Source of the DNA: Nereocystis luetkeana
Lineage: Eukaryota > Sar > Phaeophyceae > Laminariales > Laminariaceae
Reading direction: 5' to 3'
Length of the DNA: 64,000 nucleotides
NCBI GenBank assembly: GCA_031213475.1
Contig: JARUPZ010000021.1
Span: 4,688,438-4,752,437 of the forward strand
The position numbers and the translations under genes were made by a program. This document shows positions 5,294 to 58,444 of this stretch, piece by piece (the stretch's first letter is position 1; each line of letters begins with the position of its first letter). Under the pieces are notes generated by a model. The model ran no database searches. It was not told the DNA's origin and was given only the letters and a program-made list of their open reading frames with translations.

Positions 5294-8200
5294 TTACAGG
5301 AAGTCCAGCATGAGGTCGAATGTTTGGTCGGACGCATTGCGGACGTCGGCGCTCCAGTGCCCACGATTGGCGCACAGCGCGGTGGTAACCAGGTTCATGA
5401 GGCGTCTGTCGGGCGCCAGGTAGACGACGAGCATGAACTCTGCTTGGACCAGGTAAGCTGCCTCCTGCGCCACCTGACCAAAACGAAAAACCCATCGGAG
5501 TGTCGAATCGGCAGAGGGGGTAGTTAGTACAACGGGAAATTCATCACTAGTCGGCCACAAACCGGCATTTCGCCCCAACACACTCGCTTCGATTTAAAGT
5601 TCAGGCTCCGCGCGACGCCATCTTGTGCATTCGGACACGAACAACTCTGGGTAGCAGGGTGCGTACAGCGTACAGTCTTGCCGTGTTTAAAAGGCTGTCG
5701 GTGTGTGCGTGCAGGTGTGCGCGCAAGCGGTAGTTAGATAACGACTACAACGACAGCGATGACAACGCACCAGCGAGGGAGACGGCAAAAACAGCAAAAA
5801 CAAGAGAAATAACTACACCCCAAAAACTAACAAACTCCCCCCCCACCCCCCACCTTCGTGTTGGAACTGTTGATACATTTAGCGAGCCGTCGGAACAGCA
5901 TGAGCGGGATGCGGGACCCAGGGCAGACCACCTCCAGGGGGGGCGCGGCGCAAGCAACCCCGGCGATTAGTCTCAGGTACGCCACCTCTCTCCTCGAACT
6001 CCCGGCCGGCCACGTCCCCAGCAGTCGCCGGAGCAGCAGCGCCGAGGCGGGGGGCCAAAGGTGACACAGGGTTGCTCCCGCCGCGGCGAGCGGCTGCAGC
6101 CGCTCCGGAGCGTCCGCGGTGGCCGCTGCCTCGCCTCCCGCCGCCGGCGCGCCGTGGCTGGCGTAAAGGTTACACAGCGATCGCGCCGCCTCTTTCAGGG
6201 CTAACGCCGGCCATTCGGCTTCCGCCGCCGGCTCGGCACCACTACCGTAGCCGACGCCTGCTGGTACTGGTGCTGCTGCGGCGGTCGCACCAGCAGCCGT
6301 GGTAGTGCTAGACCCGCTCCCATCCGCCTCCCCAAACAGTACTCCAGGCGATTGCGCTGCTGCCCCCCCCGACGACGCCGACGTCGCCACGGTCTTCGCG
6401 CTGGGTTCAGAAAACGGCGACGTAGAATCCGATTGTTCGGCCAGTCCGAACGCAGAGCCTTCGAGCGTGCCCGACTCCGTTCGCGCGGCCCATTCGCTCA
6501 ACGCCGCCTCCGTCTCTGGTCCACCCGCCGCTATCGCAGAGAGGGCGCTCTCCGCAGCCGCAGTAGCCGCAGCGGCAGCAGCAGCAGCAGCACTCCCACC
6601 ACCACCACCACCACCACCACCAATAGCTCCACTAGCGCCACCAGCAGCGGCGGGAAGCTGTCGCGAACCGGAGGAAGAGAAGCCTTCTTCATCCCCCTGC
6701 AGCGTAAACAAAGCACGAGCGGGTCCCGCCACCGCCGCTGCTGATGCCGGCGTCGGGATCCCTTGCATCCCTCGCCTCGATAACGGCAACGGCAACGGCG
6801 ACGACGATGGAGAAAACGAGTCCCATACTAGATCCTTACTCGCCATCCCGCGTCCCCAGACACTGTCGCTACCCTCACCCCCATCACCTCCACCACCTCC
6901 ACCCCCCCCATCCCCGACACCACCAACGCCGCCCCCCGCCATCAGGTCGAACTCACCAACCCCGCCCAGTTCGACCTCCCCCTCCGCCGGCTCTTCGAGG
7001 CTTCTCAGTCCCGTAGTCACCCACGCCGGGGACCACGTCGGTTCAGTCTCAGTCCCACCCAAGACTTCAGACGGAGGTGTCGGCGGGATCGGCGTTGCTG
7101 GTGCTGGCGTCGTGGGGGTTGGCAACCCGGCAAGGCTTGGCCATGACGGCGGGCGCCGCTCGGCCAACAATTCGGGCTCCCCGCCGGGAAAGCTTGGGCT
7201 ACTGCTGCTGCTGCTGCCACTGCTGCTCGCAGCACTGCCGCCGACCCCTCCTCCCTCCCCTCTTGCCCTAGGCGTCCCTACCATCCCCCTTCCGCCAGAG
7301 CTCCCGAATTCACCAGTTCGGTTGGAGAGAGACCCATCCCCACCTCCGCCGCTGCCTTCAGCGGTTCCACCGCCGCCGCCGCCACTCTCCTCGCCTCCCC
7401 CATCATCTGTGAAAATAGTTTTCGATTCGTTGACCGATGATTTTTCCGGCGTCGCACTAAGATTTTCACTGTCTGCGGCCGAGGCTAGCTGGGATTGGGG
7501 GGTTGGTGGCATTTTTTTGGGCGCTACCCCTGCAGCCGCCGCTGCCGCCGCCGCCGCCGCCGCCGCTGCTTCCGATGTCTCCAGCTCCGTCGCTGCCGAC
7601 AAGAGTGATGGTCGTGGTGGAGGTGGTGGTGGTGGTGGCGGTGATGGTTGTGGTGACAGACGCTTCTCACCAACATCGAACGCGCTATCGGGCAGCGATA
7701 TCTGTGGCGGTGCGTCACCAATATAATTATCCTCCTCGTGGTCGCCCTCTTCCATAGCTTCCTTCTCCAGCTGTTGTTGTTGGGAAACGACGGGGGTGGG
7801 TTCTCCGCCGTCCCAACCGCGGCTGCCGCCGCTCTCAAAGTTTCCGTTGTCGCGGCTACCGCTGAATGGGACTACGCAATCACTACCACCGCCAACGCTT
7901 TCTTGACCGCCGGCGAAGTTGCCGTCACTGCTGTCAGCGTTGTTGTTGTTGTTGTTGTCGTTGTTGTTGCTGCTGCTGCTGTTGCTTTCGTTGTAGTTGC
8001 CGCTATAGCCGTTGGCGGCGGATGGAGTGGCGGCCGCCCCGTCGAACCTCCCCCCATCCTCCGCCTCCTCCCCCTCCTGCTGCGCAGCGTCAAACGGAAC
8101 CATCCCCAAGAAAAATCTCGGAAAAGTCTCCAGGACAAACAGCAGCAGCTCCCCTAACGTCTGCGACTGGTCCCGTCCCGTCACTCGAACGCTTCCTCCT

Positions 8201-9544
8201 CCACCCCCGCCCCTGCCCCTCCCCCTCCCTCCTCTCCCGCCCACCCCTACCCCACCCCTCCCCCCTCTTCCGCCGGCGCCGCCTTTTTTTGAAACCTTTG
8301 TCCCATCCGCTACGGCCGCTGCAGCAGCCTCGGCTATGTCCACCCCTGCTTTTGCAGCCCAGTCTTCAAGCTCGCGGGCGCGCATGAGATGGTCGTGGGA
8401 TGCGTGCGCTAGGGCGCGGAGTGTGGGAAGCCGTAGATGGGCGCAGTTCTCGTAGACGGCCTGGTTCGATAATAAATTGATGGCAAAAAGGTTAATGGTA
8501 ATCCATGGATGAAAAATAGGATAATATCAATGCACTAAAGGCAATAGGTTCATGGTGATACATCTATGGTAATAGGTTTTAATGGTATTGTACTGATGGT
8601 GATACATTCATGGTAACAGGTTAACTGGCAATAAATTAACACGGCAATGGGAATGCATCGATAAGTAATAAATCAATGGCCATGTATTTGATGGTAACAC
8701 ATTAATGGCACCTGGTATTACACACCAAGACGGTTCACTCCTTTATTTTGGTGGAGCTATCGTAGACGGCCTGCCTCGGATACATCAATGGTAACATATC
8801 AATTGTCACATATTTACTGGAAACAATGGCACCACATTGATGGTGATACATGATTGAAAATGTATACTTCCCTGGGTATACATTACGGTAAAGGCGTACC
8901 ATGTATTTATGCATCAACGAGCGATCGGTGCAGGGAAGAGAGGGGGAGCAGGAGCGCATTGGTGGATGGATTGGGGGGGGCAGGGCATTATTGTATCGTA
9001 CCTGCGTCACTCGTCGGCAACCAGTCGTTTCCTTGGCTTTTTTTGGGTCGGGAGACGTTGCCGACGCCAAAAAAACAAAGCATGCGTCGGAATACCCCCC
9101 TACTATTAACCCTTTTAGGACCCCAGTCCCGTTTTGGGGACAAACTACTTACAGTTTGAGTACTTTGTCCCCGCATATGGGAGTGCGGTGCTAAAATGGT
9201 TATAATAGAGGCACTGCAACCGTCGACCTATCGGCCGTCAAAACGGTACCGACGGGCCTCCGACACAAAAAATACAAATAAAAATGAGTGCAGCGTTACA
9301 CCCCCCCCCCCCCCTTCTCCTCCTCCTTTTCACCCCCTTCCACCTTGATGATCATCAGGCGTGGGCTAGGCACCCTTGGGTCTTCGAAGCGCAGGTCCGT
9401 GACCAGCCGGAACACAGCGTTGCTGTCCACGTACTGGTGCAGAAGGTCGGCCCCGGCGGTGCTCCTACGACGAAGCATGCATGCAGCGAAAGGGATATTT
9501 AATTCAAGTTAATAATCATTTCAGTGCTGGAAAAAAAAACAACG

Positions 9545-44737: not shown

Positions 44738-44995
44738 AGGTAGAGCACTGCCGACCCTGCACGTGCGCAGCCCTTGCGAGCGGCAACCCCCACCCTCCAC
44801 CCCGCCACAAAAAACGCCTGATCAATTCGCCACCTGCTCATAGAGACCGTTGGCGAACTACTGTTGACGAAGCAGAGCAGGGCCGACTACGAACGCTAGA
44901 TGGTGCTAGCGAGCGGCAACCTCTCCCCCACCCCGCGACAAAAAGGCCTCATCAATTCGCCACCATGCCCAAGAGATCGCTGACGAACGCCCGCT
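44738..44995. repeat. Direct repeat, about 140 bp x 2, overlapping an exon end
   Basis: GCGAGCGGCAACC, CACCCCGC.ACAAAAA, CCTGATCAATTCGCCACC (or its CCTCATC variant) and GAGATCGCTGACGAAC recur in two adjacent units. The right unit contains the end and stop codon of the tentative minus-strand exon 44952-45065; the left unit is a copy in what would be its 3' flank. Confidence 0.7.
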
Positions 44996-45065
44996 CGAAA
45001 GGAAGCATGGGCAGCACCTCTTCCCGCTGCATGCTAAGCATAAGCTTCGACATGAAAACGCGACC
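44952..45065 (-). CDS. Tentative terminal exon, unknown protein
   Basis: A strong acceptor (pyrimidine-rich, ending TTTTTGCAG) leads into 37 codons and TGA: GRVFMSKLMLSMQREEV, then PMLPFERAFVSDLL. The composition looks like a helical globular segment. An upstream exon ending near 45150 was considered (minus-strand KFFATLGCVKLI before a GTAATC donor) but its phase does not match. Family unknown. Confidence 0.35.
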   Translation of the reverse strand, partial: GRVFMSKLMLSMQREEVLPMLPFERAFVSDLLGMVAN

Positions 45066-45601: not shown

Positions 45602-48600
45602 TCAGTCCCTCCCTTTTTTGCCTGCTCTCGCCTTTTCTGTGGAAATGAGGTTGACCGACCACTCGAACGTCTCCGCCGAGGACACGAACGGCCTCAACGT
45701 CTGCTCCGCCTCCGCCTCGGCCTCCTTGCATAGCTGCATGGCGGCCTTCAGCTCCCTATTCGCAGCCTTGCCCTTCATTGCATCCCCCAGCAAGAAATTC
45801 CTCACGGCTGCGGCGCGCGAGCAAACCTGCACCAAAATCTTCGCGTCCTCGATGGCACCCACCGCAAAATCACGCACGCCCGCTAGATCCCCGTATAGGG
45901 CCGCGATCAAGCGCTGCTGGTCGTCGGAGCCCCCCTCGCTCGAGTGCTCGCAGGTCCCACAGCGACTATACCAACCTCCCAGCACGGTCGCGTCCGTCGA
46001 TCCCTCGGCTTTATTTGTGGGAGACGTCCTCTGCGCGCTGCCGTTACCGAACGCCATTCTGTTTGTGGCGCCGGTGGTGGTGGTGGTGGTGGTGGCGCCG
46101 ATGTCGCGGTCCGCCGCAAGGCCGCGAAGGTCTACACCCGAGGAGGCGTCCGGTCCTTGGGGGAACGGGAAAGTTGCTGCGTCGGTCTGGCTAGCCTGGG
46201 GGCGGAATTTCTTATTGGCTTCGTCCACACGACCCGGGAAATCGGTGCAGAGTCCGTCGACACCCATTTTCTGTGGCGGGACAGGACAAAGGCGAGAGAG
46301 GCAGCGGCGATAGAAGCAGCGGGACCGCGGGTGTCAGTCGGGCGCGCAGCTACTCGGGGGGGGGGGGGGGGGGGGGTGGTCGGTACTTGACCGTTCTCGT
46401 CTCTGCTTTCGAGGGCGTTTCTGTTCGCGCGAGTTGTTTGCCTTAGCAGGCCTGCCACATAGCGGTCAAAGCATTGCACATTTTCATCCCTTGATGTATC
46501 AGATGTACACGCACAACTGCATTGACGCTACTGTACACCACCACAATAGCTTCTCCAACATTCAACGGAAACAACATCGCCCACGCCATGACACTAGTTT
46601 TGTTTCGTTCTCCCACTGGAGAGACCCCGACATTAATCCTACAGGCTATAAATAGTTTGCTGCAGGCTGTGTTCTGCAATATTGAACAACATCGCTCGCG
46701 CTATAATTCACTCCGCTTTCCCTTCTACAGTAGACCCTAACATAGCTCGGCCTTTTACCACCATCTTTTTACCTCCAACTCCAATTACAACTCACCAACA
46801 GGCGTTCGTTTCACCCCCCCGCCACCACCACTCCCGCCCCCTTTAACGCTATTTTACACCACCAACTCCACACTCACCAAGAGGCGTTCCATGAAGTGGA
46901 GGCTGTTGACGGTCCACACCCAGACCTGAATGCCGCGCCTTTGGCAATCAGCGACAAGGTCTGGGCTAACATGGTCTTTGCCGGTGCTGAGGATATCCAC
47001 CTTGAGAGCCTTGAAATCGCGTGCGAGAGTGAGGGGCCCACCGTCCATGATGCACGCGGTGCGGAGCTTGGCCAGTTCGGGGATGGCCTGCCTGAAGGCG
47101 TTAACCTAGGGGTTTCAAGAGGAGGCGGCAATGGAGAAGGGGGGGGCAAAAAAGGAAGAGAAGGTTTACGCTGCTGTGAGAGGGAGTGATACATGGATGT
47201 TCGTTTTCACGCGGGAGGGAGCGGCCGAGTACGTTTCAGAACACACGCCGGGCAAAAACGCAGTTGGCGGCATTTTCAAAGTCGCATTCCGTGCACGATA
47301 TGCGTGAAAAAAACTCGTCGAGAAAAAAAAAAAAAACTGAATAAGCTGAAAAATATGAGGCTCTCACCTGCAAGAGGTCCAGCTGGCGGAAAGTCGCTAC
47401 GACAAGCCTGTCCGCCGTCCAGCCCCAGCGATTTACCGCTTGAATTACCGCGTGGAGAACCGGCCTAACTATCTCCGTGTGCTTCATGTCGATGTACAGA
47501 TGTACGCTAGACTCGGACAAAGCCTTCTCCTGTAGCATCTCCTCGAAAGTCGACACATTGTGCTTCAGCCTCTCGCGGGTCTGGGCGAGGGTAAGGTTTT
47601 CTATCCATTCGCCTGATCGCAAGGGGAGGCGGGTGACAAGAAGGGTAGAGGGGGAATACTACATGATGAAATATGTGGTGGAACTCGAGTTTAGAAGGTG
47701 TTATTCCAGCGTAGCAGTTGTTGAGCAAGATTTCTAGTTATACTTTCACTACAATGGCGTCCACGGCTGAGTCTACTTTCCCTAAAAAAAAAGCCTGGGT
47801 TTTCCGATCTACTCGCTCGGCCAATGGCGGGTGCGGGATCGCGCGGGGAAAAAAAAGGAGGCGGGGGGGGGGACAAAAAAACAAGAATAATAAACGATCA
47901 AAGAAGCCTGAGGTTTTGGAACCGTTTGCCTGGCCGCAGGGGGGGGGGGGGCGTGGGAGGGGGACCAAAAAGCGGGGGGAGGGGCAATTTTTTTTTATAA
48001 CAAGCTGTGAAATAAGTCTACCTACAGTACGGTTTTCGACCCATTCGCCTGGCCGCAGGAGGAGGGGGGGGTAAAAAACAAGCATAAAGAAAAAATGAGA
48101 AAAGAAAAACATCGGCCGCCGACGTACAACGCCAACTTGAAAAAAAAATCCCGACACTTGTATATCCGTGATCCAAAGTACTAGTGTTTTCCCCAAACAC
48201 ATAGTTGCAGTTTCTTGAAGGATTTTTTGCCGCTCGCCCAAGCCCGCAACTGAAGCATCGAGTGTGATTGTTTTGCCACCATGTTGACTACAGGTTGCAC
48301 TTTCGTGTCTACACGCTCAACTATTAATAATAGTACTGCAGAAGCTCTACACGATCTACACGACTACTTAAATCATAGTACAACAACCAAGTGACGTTCT
48401 AGAGACGGGTCTCTTACGGTGCGTCAAGGCGTGGTTTTGACATACATCCACATAATTATAGGGCACCATATGTCTTAATCATCAGAACCCAGGATGGACT
48501 CTAGAAACAAGCACTCCCCCAATGTTTACACACCAAACTTGGTAAAAGATTACTGTTGCATATGTCCGCCCGTAACGCTGCTGTGCTTGCAGTGTATGGG

Positions 48601-51600
48601 CGAGCTGTAAGGCGAAGAACCATCACGCCAGGGCAGTCTCCTGTATGTATAATACTAGACCGACAGCAGCAGAGAATCAGGTATGCAACAGACGCAGCAG
48701 CATGCCGATTTTGTATGCGCGCGTGCGAGCGAGTGCGTTTGTCGTCTGTGACGTGTGTTGTTTTGTCCCCTTTCCCCACTGAAAAGAAAATATCTCTTCC
48801 TTCCATACCTGTCTCTTCGATGAGGGGGTCGTGGTGGCAGATTACGACACCGTCTAGAGTTGTCAGGACGTCGAACTCGATCACATCCACGCCCAGCCTC
48901 ACGGCCTCGACGAAGGAGGGCATCGTGTTCCCTTCTATATGCCTGCGCCGGGAGAGGAGCAGACACACGAGGGCGGGAAGGCAGATAAGCAAGCAGGCGC
49001 CGGTGGGGGTTCACGGTTAATTCACTCAAGTACTTACGGCACTAGTACCACCGCGAAAAAATATCACACAATATTTCCAGCAGAGGTTTCCCGAAAAAAA
49101 ACGCCCGTGCGGTTCATATCGGGGGCACGGTTGGGGCAGGAAAAAAAAACTATCGCGCGGCGCGCCCAGAAAAAAAGGAAGCCCTCCCTCAGAGCTTTGT
49201 TTCGAGCTTCGGTCCAAAGGCAAAAGGCTGCAAAACCACAAAATGACAAAGCAAGCAGCCTCACCTTAGACCAACTACAAGAACACGGGGAAAAGAGGAG
49301 CCGTGACTTCTGGACTGTTCAACGACCTCCGAAGCCCAAAAATCAGAACCATCTATTTATGAGACGGGCGGTCATCGAAATATATTTGGATCTCAGCTCC
49401 AAGAGGGGGAAAATATCAGAGAATCCTCTCATCATCAGAACGGAGCCCACTTCCTAGCGGTCTCTCTTGCCTCCAGGAGCTGAGATTAAATTGAAGTTTG
49501 CTTACTACCACTACAGCAGCAATGCTACTGCCCATCTGACGAGTGTATTCGTCATAGACCAACTATTAATACTGGAAAAACACTAATAATATGGGAAAAA
49601 AATTGAGCCGTGATTTCTGGACTTTTCAGCTTTCTCCGAAGCCCAACAATCAAAACCATCTAACTGACTAGTATGGGACAGGAGGTCATCGATATATTGG
49701 GTCAGTTCCTAGAAGGGGCAAAAATCAGGGAATCCTCTCAGAACTGAGCCCAGTTCCTAGCGGTCTCTCGTGCCTCCAGGAACTAAGATTTACTTGCATT
49801 TTGTGTGCTACCACTACATCAGCAGTACTGTTGTCCATCTGCCGAGTGTATTCGTCATGCTACAGACAGCAGTATAACCACCTACAATAATAATATGGGA
49901 AAATATTAAGACGTGATTTCTGGACTATTCAGCGATCTCCGAAGCCCAAAAAATAGGGGTCATCTGATAAATAATATGGGGCATGAGGTCATCGATATTT
50001 CATATTTCTTGTCTCAGTTCCTTATAGGGGGCAAAAATCAGCGAATCCTCTCAGAAGTGAGAGCCCAATTCCTAGCGGTCTCTCGTGCCTCCACGAACTG
50101 AGATTTACTTGGGAGTCTGTGTGCTACCACTATACCAGCAGCAGCAGCAGTACTACTGCCCCTCAGCCGAGCACATTCGTCAACAACGCCAAAGGTTCAC
50201 GCCTACGGCGAGCTTTACCTATGGGCTACGGCGCTCGTGTAAGAGATCGCTTCTCCGTCATATGGAAGCGATAGCAGGGCAGCAGCAGCAGCAGCCACGG
50301 TAGTAGCGACAGCGATTCGACTCTGCCGGCGAAACTCAATCTGGACCTGGGGTGCCTAGGCCCTGCTCGCGGTCGCGCGGCGGCCGTTGGATTTGCTTCC
50401 TTTGACACAAACAAGACCAATCGACACAAACAAGACCAACCAATCCTCTAAAAAAACAGTCTCCAAAATCAGACGCCATAATAGTTGGTCCTAATTTATC
50501 ACGCATAGATTTCTGGAGCCTCGAAACTAAAAAGAAAATCGACAGAAGTCGCGGCAAGAAAAAACATGACAGTTGGTCTTACAGGTGACCGTTTTGGAAT
50601 ATTTTTTCCGAGTAGAAAATAGTATACCAGAGATGTATAATAGTGGAATTGGTCCAAACACCCCTTTTTATCGCAACCACGTAAAAGGATCGTTGATAAT
50701 CGACCACCCAATCGGTTGAACTCACTGCCGACGTTTTCGTAACAAACGTAATAAAAGCACATGTTAAAGGTGTGCGAATTATGATTGCCCTTGGTGTGGG
50801 TGGCTAGGAGCCAGGCGGCTGAATGAAGGACTATATTTTCTTTGTTTTCTTAACGTCCGGGACCAAGCAAGCCGCCAACGCAAACAAAAAAAAAACCCTG
50901 ACACTTCCGATGGTTGGCAGGTTTTGACATAATAAGCCGGGACACCGGGCTTTGGAGTCGAGGACATTTCGTCCATACCTCCCCCGACCCGTCGCAAATG
51001 GGATGCGTGGTTAACGGTCAAATTACCAAAGCAAGCAAAAAAAGCTACAAACACAAGAGTACGAGTATCATAGCAGTATTCGCAAGATAACTTACACGCG
51101 GGCACCATTTTCCAAACCGATTTTTTCTCCGAAATAAGGCAGGGGGGACGGGAGGGATACATAGCAGTTCGTAGGCGACAGCAGTTAATCTTCCACTTTG
51201 GCGAAGGCTCGCGGCTTATTGTGACGCCAACCTTGAGCAGATGCAATTTGATGCCATTACAGATTATATACCTGGTAGAAGTATTTAGAGGGCCGTTCCT
51301 CGCCGAGCGCAAATGTTTTTAGCTGCAAATTCGTAAGCTTCGAACTATCTTTTTGACTACAAAAATCTTACCCATATCGCTTCACTGCCTGTACGCTTCG
51401 CTGTACAACGAAAGTGATGGCTTTGGAAATCTCGCATGTTATACCGTAGATGATGTCGTCGAACAACATGTAAAGCAGATGTTATCATCACGCAGGGTGC
51501 ATGTACGAGCTGCACCCCCCGCATGTGCATCAAGGGAGCCGCACGAACCCAAGCACCGGGCCCACCTGGACCCAATCCTGCTGGCCGATTGCAGCACATT

Positions 51601-54600
51601 CAGGAAGTATACTGCTGTACCGTATGTATGTAATCTCCCCAGAGCTCCACAGCTGTCAGATTTTGTTCCCCTTTAAACCCGTAGTTCGCGCGATCGAAGT
51701 ATCCCATGCGGCTCGCGCCTTTAGGACTGCAGTCCCATTTTGGGGATAAACCACTCAAATGGTGACTAGTGTGTGCCCAAAACGGGACTGTAGCCCTAAA
51801 AGGGTCAAGATGAATTTCAACGAAATCCTCGATCTCACACCCAATGTATTTTTTTATTCAAGAATATCACACGAACGAGTGAAACGATACCTGGTATGCT
51901 ATGGATATGACATGTTACTAATTTCTGGTCTTGCTTGTGTTGTTATGTTATCGTACCCGGCACGCTGGCATGTCGCCCTGCTTGACCCATTAATTTGCGA
52001 CTATTTTTGTTTTTGGTCTTCCTCTGTCTCACACAGAATTAATATCTCTCCAGGACGGACACTGGATGTACTGATGAAGCTGTGGGTAGAAAGGACGATT
52101 TAATGTGGAGACAAAACACACACATGAAAATAACTATCGCCCGAGCTGCGAGGTCAAGGAAAACACGAGCGCGGGTGACACGTGATCCGGGCCTGCACGA
52201 AGATCCACCGAAAATTTACGTGCGTTTGCAACCGTTAATTTTGTTCCTTTTTCCAGCGTTCGACGGAAAGACCGAACAAAGGTGCTTCCGAAGATCGAAG
52301 ATCAGCCGAAGACACTTGGTAGATATGAACAAGACACAGACGAAACTATTAAAAAAAAATGTTTTCAATCAACCATACCATCCACACCAGCATCACAAGC
52401 AACTTTCCCCGATACTACGTACGCATTGTACGTTGCGTATCACTCATATCTTCGTACAGCAGGGTCATTAAGTATGATGCTCGTACGTACGTGCGCATTG
52501 TTTTGGTTGGTGCCCCTAAAAAAAGAGCACATTACACACACTATACAATACCATCAGTAATGGCACCAGTATAATGGTCAGGAGCAGGAGGTGTTCCAAC
52601 AACTCCAGGTTTGGGTCAGGCGGTCTTCAAAATCCTACGCGTCGAGTCGGGGTCGGGTTGAGCCCAACGCCCGGCAAGACTTCACGGATACTGAGCCCAT
52701 CGAAAAGTTGCGTATCACGCCTGTGCTACAAGTACGTAGTAAGCGCCGATTCCACGACTTTTCAAACGGCTCTTTTAGAAGACACATCCGATCGCTCGAG
52801 ACGTTGGACTTTTGACCGCCGCAATGGCCGAATACAAGGAACAAAACCTAAATATGTAGCCATGGATACGGGGCGACAACAAAGGCGCTACTCCTACATA
52901 CTCCATCCATTGCTGGCGGATATCACCAGCTACACCATTTAACCAGGGATGCGCTGGCTACCGGTCCCGGTTCCGCGCGATTTCTCGGTTCCGGGCTGCT
53001 TCTGTGTTGCATTTGCATTGCCCACGAAAAAATCGTGATATGGGCAATTCTGGAATTTGGTCAACGTGTGGAAGATCTCTCTACCTCTGATTTTTTCCTC
53101 GTAGGAACATTTCGTAAACTTGCCACAAACTCCAGCTGTATCGTCGATCCGACACGCATGTCTCCCTTTTTTTTTTTTTTTTTTTTTTTTTTTCTCATCC
53201 CATTCATTATCTTCGCACATCTTCTCTCTCTCCTTCCAACTCGTAACTCAGATCCGGGGTCACATAGCAGGCTCTTCTCCCCCCTTCCCGCTACGGTACG
53301 TGCCTTCATTTTTATCGCGAGAAGATTTCAGCCTTTTCTTCCCTCGTCGACTCGCATCGAATTGTGCCTACCCACGCTGCAAGGCGCTCTCAACAATTGA
53401 ATCCTTGCAAAGTACCAGATATTATTTAGTGGACTCACTTCAAGCAGTGCGACGAAGCGGCAGCAAATTCCATGTCTTCTAATGGGGCGATTCGATGATT
53501 ACATTTCCGCCCCGAATGGTACGACGGCACAGCAGTAATGGTCCCTCTGTGGTGCCTACAGGTATGCGTCAGCCAACAATACCGGCACTACAGGCTTACA
53601 GTAAGCGTAACCGGCACTACGCCCGCACACTGCCCGGATGGTTATAACCCCAATTGCTGTACACACAACTGCTCCCATTGCCCTTTCGCTACGAGTGCGT
53701 ACCTACCACGGACGGACCAGACAATGTCACATGACCTTATCAACAGTTTGAAATCAACAACTGTTTGCTGACAAGTTATCCGAGTAAAATTCCAAGGATG
53801 CAAGAGTTTGCCGAAGATAAAGCAAGGGACAAAAAGTCAGCTAAAACAATTTGCACTTCCTGCATGCAACAAATGTGTGCGTGGACAAGTGATGATACCG
53901 TCTTTCTCTTCTACCAATAATACCAGGAATACATCATGTACACACCCAAACCCGGAATGCCCACAATGCCCGATTTGAAAAACAACAAAAATAGGGCATT
54001 TCCATGACAGCAGTTCATGTACGAGGTACTTCAACAATATAAAAAAATCCTCAGGTGTGATGACATCCAGGATTTCGTCGGAACTTCTCTCAGCAAGCTG
54101 AGTGGAACACTTCGATCGACGGTGTCTTTTGCGGCTTGTATCAATTGCCTTGTAAACTGTATCCTACAGCAACAACAGCGACGAGCAGTTGAAGGAGGTG
54201 GCATCTATGGTTCAGCAGTAGTATTATTAATAAGACGTACGGACGTATCATACGTTGCTGTTGTACTTTCGAACTGCTGCAGAAGTTTGATATCCGCGTC
54301 TGCTCACCATTTCAAAGCCTCCAAGAATCGGCTGTAGGTACTGGCAGTATTTTTTCATTTTCTCCTTATTTTTGCCTGGTGATACTCGTAGTGCACCGTA
54401 CCTGGTATGTATCTGGTACCTATATCTGGTACCTATTTGCCGAGGTTTCACGGAGGTTTTGTGCTTGGCGTCTAAGACAGACCCTCGAACTCGAACCCCG
54501 ACTCCAAGCCAGTGTTCAGTGCTGGGCTGTCATGCTTGGCAAGACTCTACATAGTAGTAGCTTTATTCGGCCGGCTTGGATGTTGTGCTCGAAAAGACTC

Positions 54601-57191
54601 TCGAGGTTGATCCGGCCTGCTCCGGATCCCGGCATGCTATGGTTTGGAAAACTCTTATTACTATTAATAGTATAGATTTTGATTGAGCCGGGTATATACC
54701 CCTTTTAGGCAACGGAAGTGTATGAAGATTTACTACCAGCAGATGCCCGCGAGTACTGCTATTTCGGTCGCCAGTCGCCAGCCGCCAATCGCTTTATAAA
54801 AGAAAGAAAATGATGCCCGACACTACCGACAGACCCGAGACCTGGGCGCGTCTATAAACCGATACCAGGTATGTTCGAAATATAAGAATCGTATTACTAT
54901 TTATACAAATACTCCGACGATCCTTACATTCCTGGACAGTGGTGGTGCCTACGTGCCACAGGTATTCAAGATATACCAGGTACCAGGTACCTGGTACCTT
55001 GTTTGAGGCTGCCGTTTCATTATTCTTCAGAATACTATTTACGTCAACAAAGGATTTACCACCGGTTCCCATCTTTGAGGAAGTGCATTTGCTACTCGTA
55101 GTGCTCGGTTGGCTGGTGTACGGTGGAGATCAGAGAAGATACACCCTGTACATACGTACTGCTGTGTCGTATATTATGGTACCATAATACGGTAAGGTGT
55201 GTGATATGGCGATATGACACAAAGGGCAACACAAACAATTTCAGTCCGAATTCCTTGTTCTTCAACCTTGGAAAGTTGGAGCCTTGGGAATACTGCTGTA
55301 CCCGTGATGTAAAAACATGACCGTCACCACCGAGATATTTGTCAAATGTAGGGGAGAGCTTCATAAATCAACACCACCGCCACCAGCAAGAAGGGAGCAC
55401 AGCCGCGACAGTATTATAGCAGCTTACAGCAACACCCCCCCCCCTCCGTCTCTTTTTATCTCTCACCCAGCAGCACCCTTGTGCCCGATATTGAGCGCCT
55501 TCTCCCACTTGGAGCTGTGTAGGTCGCGCTTGGCTACGGGTTCTGCCCCGTTCAGCCTAGGGCTCGGCGCCAAGAGCGCCGTAGCCCGGACCTTATCCCT
55601 GGTGTGGTGGAGATCCACGGCCACGCGGCGGGCAACGCGGGACACGTGGCTCTCGGATGCCCACCTGATACATAGTAAATAGACGATCGTAGGAGCAGCA
55701 GCAGTAGCAGTAGAACGCAGCGGCGGCATGGCAGACAGCAGTAGGGTGTCGGATACTGCGCTCGAAGTGCGGGGACAAACCACTTGGAATTAGTGTTTAA
55801 AACATGTTTTCAAAAACTGTAAAACCAACACTTTTAGGGACGAAGCTACTTGTAATTATTTTGGTCTATTCTATTTTATGCAGTGGTTTTGGTTTTAGAG
55901 GTTCACATAAGCTTGCATTGCAACTTCATCCACACCCACACTTGATGCGATACGAAAACAAGTCGCTCGGGTGCTATTTCATTCCACACTTTCATACAAC
56001 GACTCTCGTGCCTCGAAAAATATCACACCGTAACGAGTCTTCCGTGGATATGATAAGACGAACATCGGTAACTTTCAACGTCACTGCCAAAAGAAAGTTC
56101 AACAAATATAAATGTGCCCGAGCAACACAGATGATCATAGATATTATATGAGATGATGGTAGATAGGATACGCGGGAAGCGGGGGTTCTTCTCCGGCTTT
56201 TTTGCTGCGGCCAAAGACCAGAGGGAGCAAGCATCAAGCCCGGGGAGCGAGACCTCCGGGGCGGGCGGAACGAAGGGGTGACTCAAATAGATGGGGGCCC
56301 GATACACCTAAAATACGAGGAGTAGAATATAGATATCTCTAAAAATTAAAGTGCACATTTATGTTCATATGTACACATATGGGTATATTTTTGTATTTGG
56401 CCGCTGTCGGGCTGCGGGACCCAATCAACACAAAAAACTTACCGAGAAATACAACAATCACACGCATACGAATAGACTGCTGTGACTCGTACTCGTACGC
56501 ACCACAACATATCGCTGTCTCAATCTAGAGCAGGGACACACGAGAGCCTCTAGAGGAGACGGGCCCGAGGCCGCATCTGGGCGAGGGGATGCATGTGGAT
56601 GGCTGGTCGCAACCGCAAGAACAGCATGCAGCAGCATGAAATATCATAAAAGTTGCGGAATTTGCCTCTAAAAAATAACATCAATGAAACACAGAGGGTG
56701 CTCGGTCCCGAGAGAGGAAAACGGTTGCGGACGAGCGAGTAGGGTACCCTCGTCCGCGAGCTGCGAAAAATGGCGCGGCCGGAGCTCCTGCACTTGCACC
56801 TCACCGATTCCTGCCACACAGCAGCAACATCTTTGCTGGACCAGTGCACCACGCCGACACTAGAAGCCCATGAACCAGCGCATGTTTTTTCAAGCCTCTG
56901 CTGGTCTGTTGTCATGCGTCGCATTACTTGTTTCGTCTCGAAAAACGACGATGCTGGATGACGTTGAACCAGTCAGTCATCAAACGTCGGAAAAAATCCT
57001 CACATAAAAAAAACACGAAATGTCACTCACATGGTCTTGGTAGAACTGGAGACGATGCGCCACTCCAGGAGGTCCTTCATACGCAGGAAGACCAAGACGG
57101 AGGACATGAGCTCCTCGGGGAGAGGCATGGCCATCGCACGCGCCGGCAATGGGTGGTCGTCAAGCTCTTGGTGGCAGCCAAGGTCAGTCAT
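45602..57191 (-). CDS. F-box-GDPD fusion protein, seven exons, 576 aa
   Basis: Exons: 57191-57031, 56895-56800, 55664-55467, 48942-48809, 47612-47368, 47105-46878 and 46270-45602 (TGA). Phases 2,2,2,1,0,0 agree at all six junctions; total 1731 nt. Residues about 24-60 form an F-box (LPEELMSSVLVFLRMKDLL..RIVSSSTK), the Skp1-binding motif of SCF ubiquitin ligases. Residues about 142-370 form a glycerophosphodiester phosphodiesterase barrel: IGHKG, EGNTMPSF, IEFDV, HHD, LYIDMKH, VWVWTVNS and GVDGLCTDFP. GDPDs hydrolyse glycerophosphodiesters to glycerol-3-phosphate and an alcohol. The remaining 200 residues are Gly/Thr-rich, then helical and charged. Two signature residues differ from the usual HRG..PENT: Lys for Arg and Gly for the metal-binding Glu. 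No signal peptide is seen, so a cytosolic or nuclear place fits the F-box. The weakest joins are exons 1-3; if they are wrong, the F-box exon belongs to a separate gene. Confidence 0.7.
47800..48062 (-). repeat. Decayed copies of GDPD exon-5 acceptor region
   Basis: On the minus strand three copies of the acceptor-plus-exon start lie upstream of the real one at 47612: GCGGCCAGGCGAATGGGTCG near 48050, GCGGCCAGGCAAACGG near 47930 and a weaker one near 47820. All are followed by GAAAACC-like words, as in the real exon (CAGGCGAATGGATAG, AAAACC). The spacing is about 110-120 bp. Confidence 0.7.
49263..50195. repeat. Approx. 310-bp satellite, three tandem units
   Basis: Each unit contains TTCTGGACT.TTCA, TCCGAAGCCCA, GGTCATCGA, AATCCTCTCA, CCTAGCGGTCTCTC, TGCCTCCA and CTACCACTA in the same order. 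Units start near 49263, 49565 and 49870 and diverge by substitutions and small indels. They lie in the 6.5-kb intron 3 of the F-box-GDPD gene and have no coding potential. Confidence 0.85.
51717..51808. mobile_element. MITE family A, copy 6
   Basis: TTTAGGACTGCAGTCCCATT and AACGGGACTGTAGCCCTAAA arms; the right end AGGGTCAA is a mutated GGGTTAA. Inside the large GDPD intron. Confidence 0.75.
53166..53405 (-). mobile_element. SINE family 1, 5'-truncated copy
   Basis: Reverse complement of the body and tail of 58106-58444: a T run at 53166-53192 (the poly-A tail), CATCTTCTCTCTCTCCTTCC and TCGCATCGAATTGTGCC, ending at CAATTGAATCC, where the match to the other copy begins. The tRNA head is absent, typical of truncated reverse transcription. 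Confidence 0.85.
55804..56151 (+). CDS. Small ORF with hydrophobic N-terminus, doubtful
   Basis: 115 codons starting MFSKTVKPTLLGTKLL, with a hydrophobic stretch (VIILVYSILCSGF) that could be a signal peptide or single membrane span, then a basic, His-rich tail. It lies antisense in intron 2 of the F-box-GDPD model, in AT-rich sequence. No homologue was recognised and no splice or regulatory support was seen; it may be a chance ORF. Confidence 0.15.
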   Translation: MFSKTVKPTLLGTKLLVIILVYSILCSGFGFRGSHKLALQLHPHPHLMRYENKSLGCYFIPHFHTTTLVPRKISHRNESSVDMIRRTSVTFNVTAKRKFNKYKCARATQMIIDII

Positions 57192-58105: not shown

Positions 58106-58444
58106 TCGCCCCGGTGGTTCAAGTGGTTAACCTCGAATTCTACTTGTTTGAGTCCTGGGTTCGAGCCCCAGGTGGGTCGGACTTTGACTATATTTGAAAA
58201 AATAAAAAAAGGATTCAATTGTTGAGAGCGCCTTGCAGCGTGGGTAGGCACAATTCGATGCGAGTCGACGAGGGAAGAAAAGGCTGAAATCTTCTCGCGA
58301 TAAAAATTGAAGGCACGTACCGTAGCGGGAAGGGGGGAGAAGAGCCTGCTATGCGACCCCGGATCTGAGTTACGAGTTGGAAGGAGAGAGAGAAGAAGAT
58401 GTGCGAAGATAATGAATTGGATGAGAAAAAAAAAAAAAAAAAAA
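58106..58444 (+). mobile_element. SINE family 1 (tRNA-derived), full-length copy
   Basis: The head has a consensus A box (TGGTTCAAGTGG) and B box (GGTTCGAGCCC) with a perfect T-arm (CTGGG TTCGAGC CCCAG). A body of about 230 bp follows and ends in about 20 A (58427-58445). Pol III internal promoter plus A tail is the standard SINE plan. Related copies are at 53166-53405 (minus) and 41863-42010. Confidence 0.85.

Follow-up and report, generated by a model that had tools for sequence, protein, structure and literature searches.

F-box modules in other proteins dock onto ubiquitin ligases. Some F-box proteins join this module to another: KDM2A/B, F-box DNA helicase 1 and Ect2-like each carry an enzyme or signalling domain as the second domain. 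Glycerophosphodiester phosphodiesterases (GDPD) are described by the motif HR...EN...ExD...HD (PMC4926365). The enzyme of that study has the metal ligands Glu44, Asp46 and Glu111, and alanine at any of the three metal ligands inactivates the T. tengcongensis enzyme (PMC4926365). Both kinds of domain are already known; their combination appears to be new. Here we analysed a 64,000-nucleotide stretch of the brown alga Nereocystis luetkeana (contig JARUPZ010000021.1, positions 4,688,438 to 4,752,437; "the window"), in which one minus-strand gene joins a weak F-box-like module to a GDPD domain. From its sequence, the gene is predicted to encode three conserved modules in one reading frame: a degenerate F-box-like N-terminus, a GDPD barrel and, after a variable linker, a helical C-terminal domain. 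We did not find an F-box-GDPD fusion described in the titles and abstract openings listed for the literature on F-box with GDPD, brown algae or Ectocarpus, a search of limited reach, and the available part of PMC7663155 holds nothing on such a protein.

Results

The corrected gene occupies positions 57191-44952 of the minus strand. It spans 12,240 bases, with seven exons and six introns, and encodes a protein of 572 aa (Table 1). Of 7,996 candidates scored in a protein search, 19 were listed, namely eight family proteins, three C-terminal fragments (P0009-P0011) and eight other, more remote GDPDs. The family proteins are P0003-P0006 from Ectocarpus, the close relatives P0001 and P0002, P0007 from Discosporangium and P0008 from Choristocarpus; the latter two genera, like Ectocarpus, belong to the Phaeophyceae. 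Counts for the N-terminus take in the seven complete relatives and leave out P0006, which starts inside the GDPD domain, and P0009-P0011. All seven contain both the F-box-like exon and the GDPD domain, as a sequence-only reading of this DNA had proposed for the window.

That reading had joined seven exons into a 576-aa frame. Its GT-AG borders, compatible phases and continuous frame held at all six junctions, but its second exon and its 3' end were wrong. The proposed second exon, 56895-56800, was rejected: it is missing from all seven relatives, and exon 1 joins 55664-55467 in the same phase (intron 1 is 57030-55665). In each of these relatives the part corresponding to exon 1 ends in STKAM, VTM or TPM and is followed directly by WASES or FASE, the residues encoded by 55664-55467. 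Since its 96 nt are a multiple of 3, the frame is undisturbed with or without it. The segment is probably a spurious decoy with acceptable borders, or at most a rare alternative exon.

At the 3' end, the proposed last exon overran a GC donor. The true end is at 45632, and a further exon at 45065-44952 had been overlooked. It encodes GRVFMSKL...DLLGMVAN, which matches the C-terminal tail of the relatives (GREFM...DLLG). The last intron (45631-45066, minus strand) is of the GC-AG type with the donor AAG/GCGAGA. The fragments P0009-P0011 read lysine-valine at this position, as expected if their source species have a GT donor there and their sequence continues into intron. The longest intron, of 6,524 bases (55466-48943), lies within the GDPD motif GHKGAAGHIEGNT (GHKGAA/GHIEGNT). 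Since it splits the motif itself, the join across it is secured by the GDPD domain.

Table 1. Features of the F-box-like/GDPD gene in the window (all on the minus strand)
Feature	Position	Description
Exon 1	57031..57191	N-terminus and first two thirds of the F-box-like module; GT donor; matched by 7 relatives
Rejected exon	56800..56895	exon 2 of the sequence-only reading; absent in 7/7 relatives
Exon 2	55467..55664	exon 3 of the sequence-only reading; remaining F-box-like module, linker, GDPD start including the GHKGA motif
Exon 3	48809..48942	GDPD; EFD and HHD motifs
Exon 4	47368..47612	GDPD; DMKH at the third metal ligand position
Exon 5	46878..47105	GDPD
Exon 6	45632..46270	GDPD end, variable linker, bulk of the C-terminal helical domain; GC donor at end
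Exon 7	44952..45065	last residues and stop codon; C-termini of 7 relatives match
F-box-like module	55622..57128	residues 22-68, split by intron 1; sub-threshold F-box matches and profile control
GDPD domain (PF03009)	46232..55483	residues 115-335, across introns; E 1e-31
C-terminal helical domain	44955..45916	residues 441-572, across intron 6; conserved in 7 relatives

Two kinds of repeat lie in the longest intron. One is a tandem array of 303-nt units (49298-50141, 2.7 copies). The other is one of two near-identical inverted copies of ~187 nt (53220-53406), whose partner stands upstream of exon 1 (58209-58396; 98-100%); these copies are possibly a recent mobile element.

The identity of the GDPD domain is certain on sequence grounds. 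The PF03009 profile matched at 111.3 bits against a curated cut-off of 23.6, and the assignment had been equally clear on the earlier 576-aa protein (E 1.2e-31). Identity in this domain is 155/234 to Discosporangium and 152/232 to Choristocarpus. Both catalytic histidines are kept, at the positions of H17 and H59 of the T. tengcongensis GDPD structure 2pz0, and so are the ExD and HD motifs, the E44 and D46 metal ligand positions and the K121 position. In all eight family proteins HR reads HK and EN reads GN. The position of E119, which we take to be the third metal ligand of 2pz0, holds D. The protein falls outside the strict GDPD motif through HK and GN, but by its profile match and fold it remains a member of the superfamily. 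Both AlphaFold models (P0003 and P0007, from alignments of 8 and 6 rows) contain a good TIM barrel, and the structure matches cover model residues 111-354. The NCBIfam models gave only GDPD matches below cut-off, in three relatives.

We scanned seven N-termini (the window and six relatives, P0005 left out) alone in Pfam, and F-box-like was matched by five of the seven and F-box by four. Exon 1 alone gave a sub-threshold Pfam F-box match (E 0.025). The window N-terminus reached E 0.04, with 14.1 and 13.7 bits against the curated cut-offs of 24.3 (PF00646) and 20.5 (PF12937), and so belongs to neither family by that measure. As a control we used a profile of five F-boxes, which retrieves 51 PDB sequences, nearly all of them named F-box proteins. 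It scored the window at 14.2 bits, the five close relatives at 12.4-14.0, Discosporangium at 10.2 and Choristocarpus at 7.4. Shuffling the window N-terminus 2000 times gave at best 9.9 bits, and no shuffle reached 14.2. None of the 999 open reading frames (ORFs) of >= 40 aa in the window reached 14.2 either; the top-scoring one (13.4 bits, minus strand from 57398) is the frame of the F-box exon itself, and the next had 7.4. When 25 slices of the family alignment were compared by hhalign, the two holding the whole stretch scored 22.6 and 21.4, and none of the remaining 23 scored above 14.6. These controls place the similarity of the window N-terminus to F-boxes beyond chance. Against the PDB, the N-terminal family profile matched cyclin F best (9cb3, E 0.75); the N-terminus of the sequence-only reading, with its false exon, had no PDB match at E 10. 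The F-box-like region is identical at 28/47 positions to Discosporangium and 26/47 to Choristocarpus. To judge by these data, the N-terminus is a module under constraint and looks most like an F-box, though it stays below the curated cut-offs.

The sequence-only reading had recognised the F-box-like N-terminus and the GDPD, and missed a conserved third part. Behind a variable linker (about residues 341-440) lies a C-terminal helical domain for which Pfam gives nothing above cut-off, identical at 54/131 positions to Discosporangium and 50/131 to Choristocarpus. AlphaFold, which modelled this part only within whole proteins, drew its helices with moderate confidence in just one of the two models, the first (10-residue means mostly 58-82; in the second mostly < 60).

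By BLAST, the corrected protein is 76.4-79.2% identical to the five close relatives. The match to Discosporangium runs over 577 columns at 43.3% identity, and that to Choristocarpus falls into two parts, with 53.7% over 367 and 37.5% over 144. With a profile built from six members of the family, 11 proteins among 7,995 were listed at E <= 1e-8, the eight family proteins and three short GDPDs. A search with the N-terminus alone (P0003 residues 22-112) brought up five family proteins among 103 candidates and missed both Discosporangium and Choristocarpus, a sign of short reach. Candidates in the protein search must share 5-residue words with the query, which limits its reach to distant relatives. 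Within this limited reach, the protein, six-member profile and N-terminal searches did not find the same layout outside brown algae. The domain order that the sequence-only reading suggested looking for in other brown algae and stramenopiles occurs in seven relatives with both parts; in the whole proteins the F-box goes unmatched by Pfam.

In P0002 the 576-aa frame runs unbroken on a 2,557-base contig. It apparently derives from a spliced transcript, since the intact frame fits 2,557 bases whereas the gene here spans 12,240 with six introns; it may be a retrocopy instead.

Elsewhere in the window, a long open frame on the minus strand (5830-8526) matched the B56 regulatory subunit of protein phosphatase 2A weakly (2.8e-4, below cut-off). 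No Rfam family and no tRNA was detected in the window.

Discussion

We put about an even chance (roughly 0.5) on the reading that this three-module brown-algal protein would be a metabolic enzyme tethered to the SCF (Skp1-cullin-F-box) ubiquitin ligase through its F-box-like module. The GDPD barrel would bind, and probably hydrolyse, a small substrate of the glycerophosphodiester or lysophospholipid type. The N-terminal module, by its weak sequence similarity, may dock the protein on Skp1; such SCF recruitment is plausible. Ubiquitination might then set the level of the protein itself, or of a partner attached to the C-terminal domain, which could serve as a regulator or partner site.

The tether is the part most open to challenge, and a serious rival denies that the N-terminus works as an F-box. 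In that case the N-terminus would be a lineage-specific helical segment that serves an otherwise ordinary cytosolic GDPD as a cap, localiser or dimer contact, with ubiquitin uninvolved. We consider this doubtful but well worth weighing. Many observations count against the tethered enzyme. None of the eight whole proteins gave a Pfam F-box match, nor did the whole 576-aa protein of the sequence-only reading. All the N-termini scanned alone stayed below the curated cut-off (best E 0.023), the match is confined to the first half of the domain, and the F-box probability in hhalign was ~31%. An unrelated phage model also came up for one N-terminus (E 0.076), and the N-terminal profile had an unrelated chain as its second PDB match (E 1.4). 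Since its 7.4 bits lie below the best shuffle at 9.9, the Choristocarpus N-terminus is within the chance range if judged by the shuffle test alone. In the AlphaFold model of P0003, residues 33-57 and 65-92 form two long helices and residues 1-62 have a predicted local distance difference test score (pLDDT) < 50; in that of P0007, residues 1-102 have pLDDT < 50. Neither has a confident F-box fold, the N-terminus having been modelled only within whole proteins. On the other side, most N-termini match F-box families, the shuffle, ORF and slice controls favour F-box similarity, and the N-terminus is conserved nearly as well as the GDPD. The N-terminal F-box of the sequence-only reading survives as a similarity beyond chance, in a degenerate, sub-threshold form.

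A further challenge concerns the barrel. HK for HR, GN for EN and D at the third metal ligand also count against an enzyme, and because of these changes activity may be altered or lost. They fit a lipid-headgroup sensor on SCF, as does the conserved C-terminal domain: the barrel would bind a glycerophosphodiester, turning it over little or not at all, and control ubiquitination of a putative partner of that domain. We regard this as unlikely, since both histidines and the E44, D46 and K121 positions are kept, which favours an enzyme over a sensor. A lipid-headgroup-responsive SCF receptor whose barrel binds or turns over the glycerophosphodiester, controlling ubiquitination of the C-terminal-domain partner, seems equally improbable. 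The idea that an F-box gene and a GDPD gene were mistakenly joined can draw on the 6.5-kb intron with internal repeats and on exon joins read, in the window, from genomic sequence alone. We rejected it and give it hardly any weight, as that intron splits the GDPD's own GHKGAA/GHIEGNT motif, P0002 is a single intact frame, and both parts occur in every N-terminally complete relative. Each of these relatives extends upstream into the F-box-like exon, which argues against a separate start near 55664, the sign by which the F-box would have belonged to a different gene.

The analysis corrects the gene model and reveals a conserved C-terminal domain that Pfam does not name. If the F-box-like module does bind Skp1, the protein would link phospholipid breakdown physically and directly to SCF ubiquitin ligases, a link kept in Ectocarpus, Discosporangium and Choristocarpus. 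If the protein were instead a lipid-responsive receptor, membrane lipid turnover would be tied to protein degradation in brown algae.

Compared with the GDPD family, as represented by 2pz0, the brown-algal protein shares the TIM barrel, the ExD and HD motifs, the two catalytic histidines and two of the three metal ligands. It differs in HK for HR, GN for EN and D for the third metal Glu, in a shorter stretch after the HD motif and in its extra N- and C-terminal modules. With F-box proteins (PF00646, PF12937; nearest by profile cyclin F) it shares the N-terminal LPEEL..VL.FL..KDLLEWR.VS pattern, but its module lies below the curated cut-offs and diverges in the second half of the domain, and Pfam finds no WD40, leucine-rich (LRR) or Kelch repeats in the brown-algal proteins. 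KDM2A/B, F-box DNA helicase 1 and Ect2-like, which were among the PDB matches, resemble it in joining an F-box to a second functional domain; in the brown-algal protein, the F-box is sub-threshold and its partner is a phosphodiesterase of the phospholipid type.
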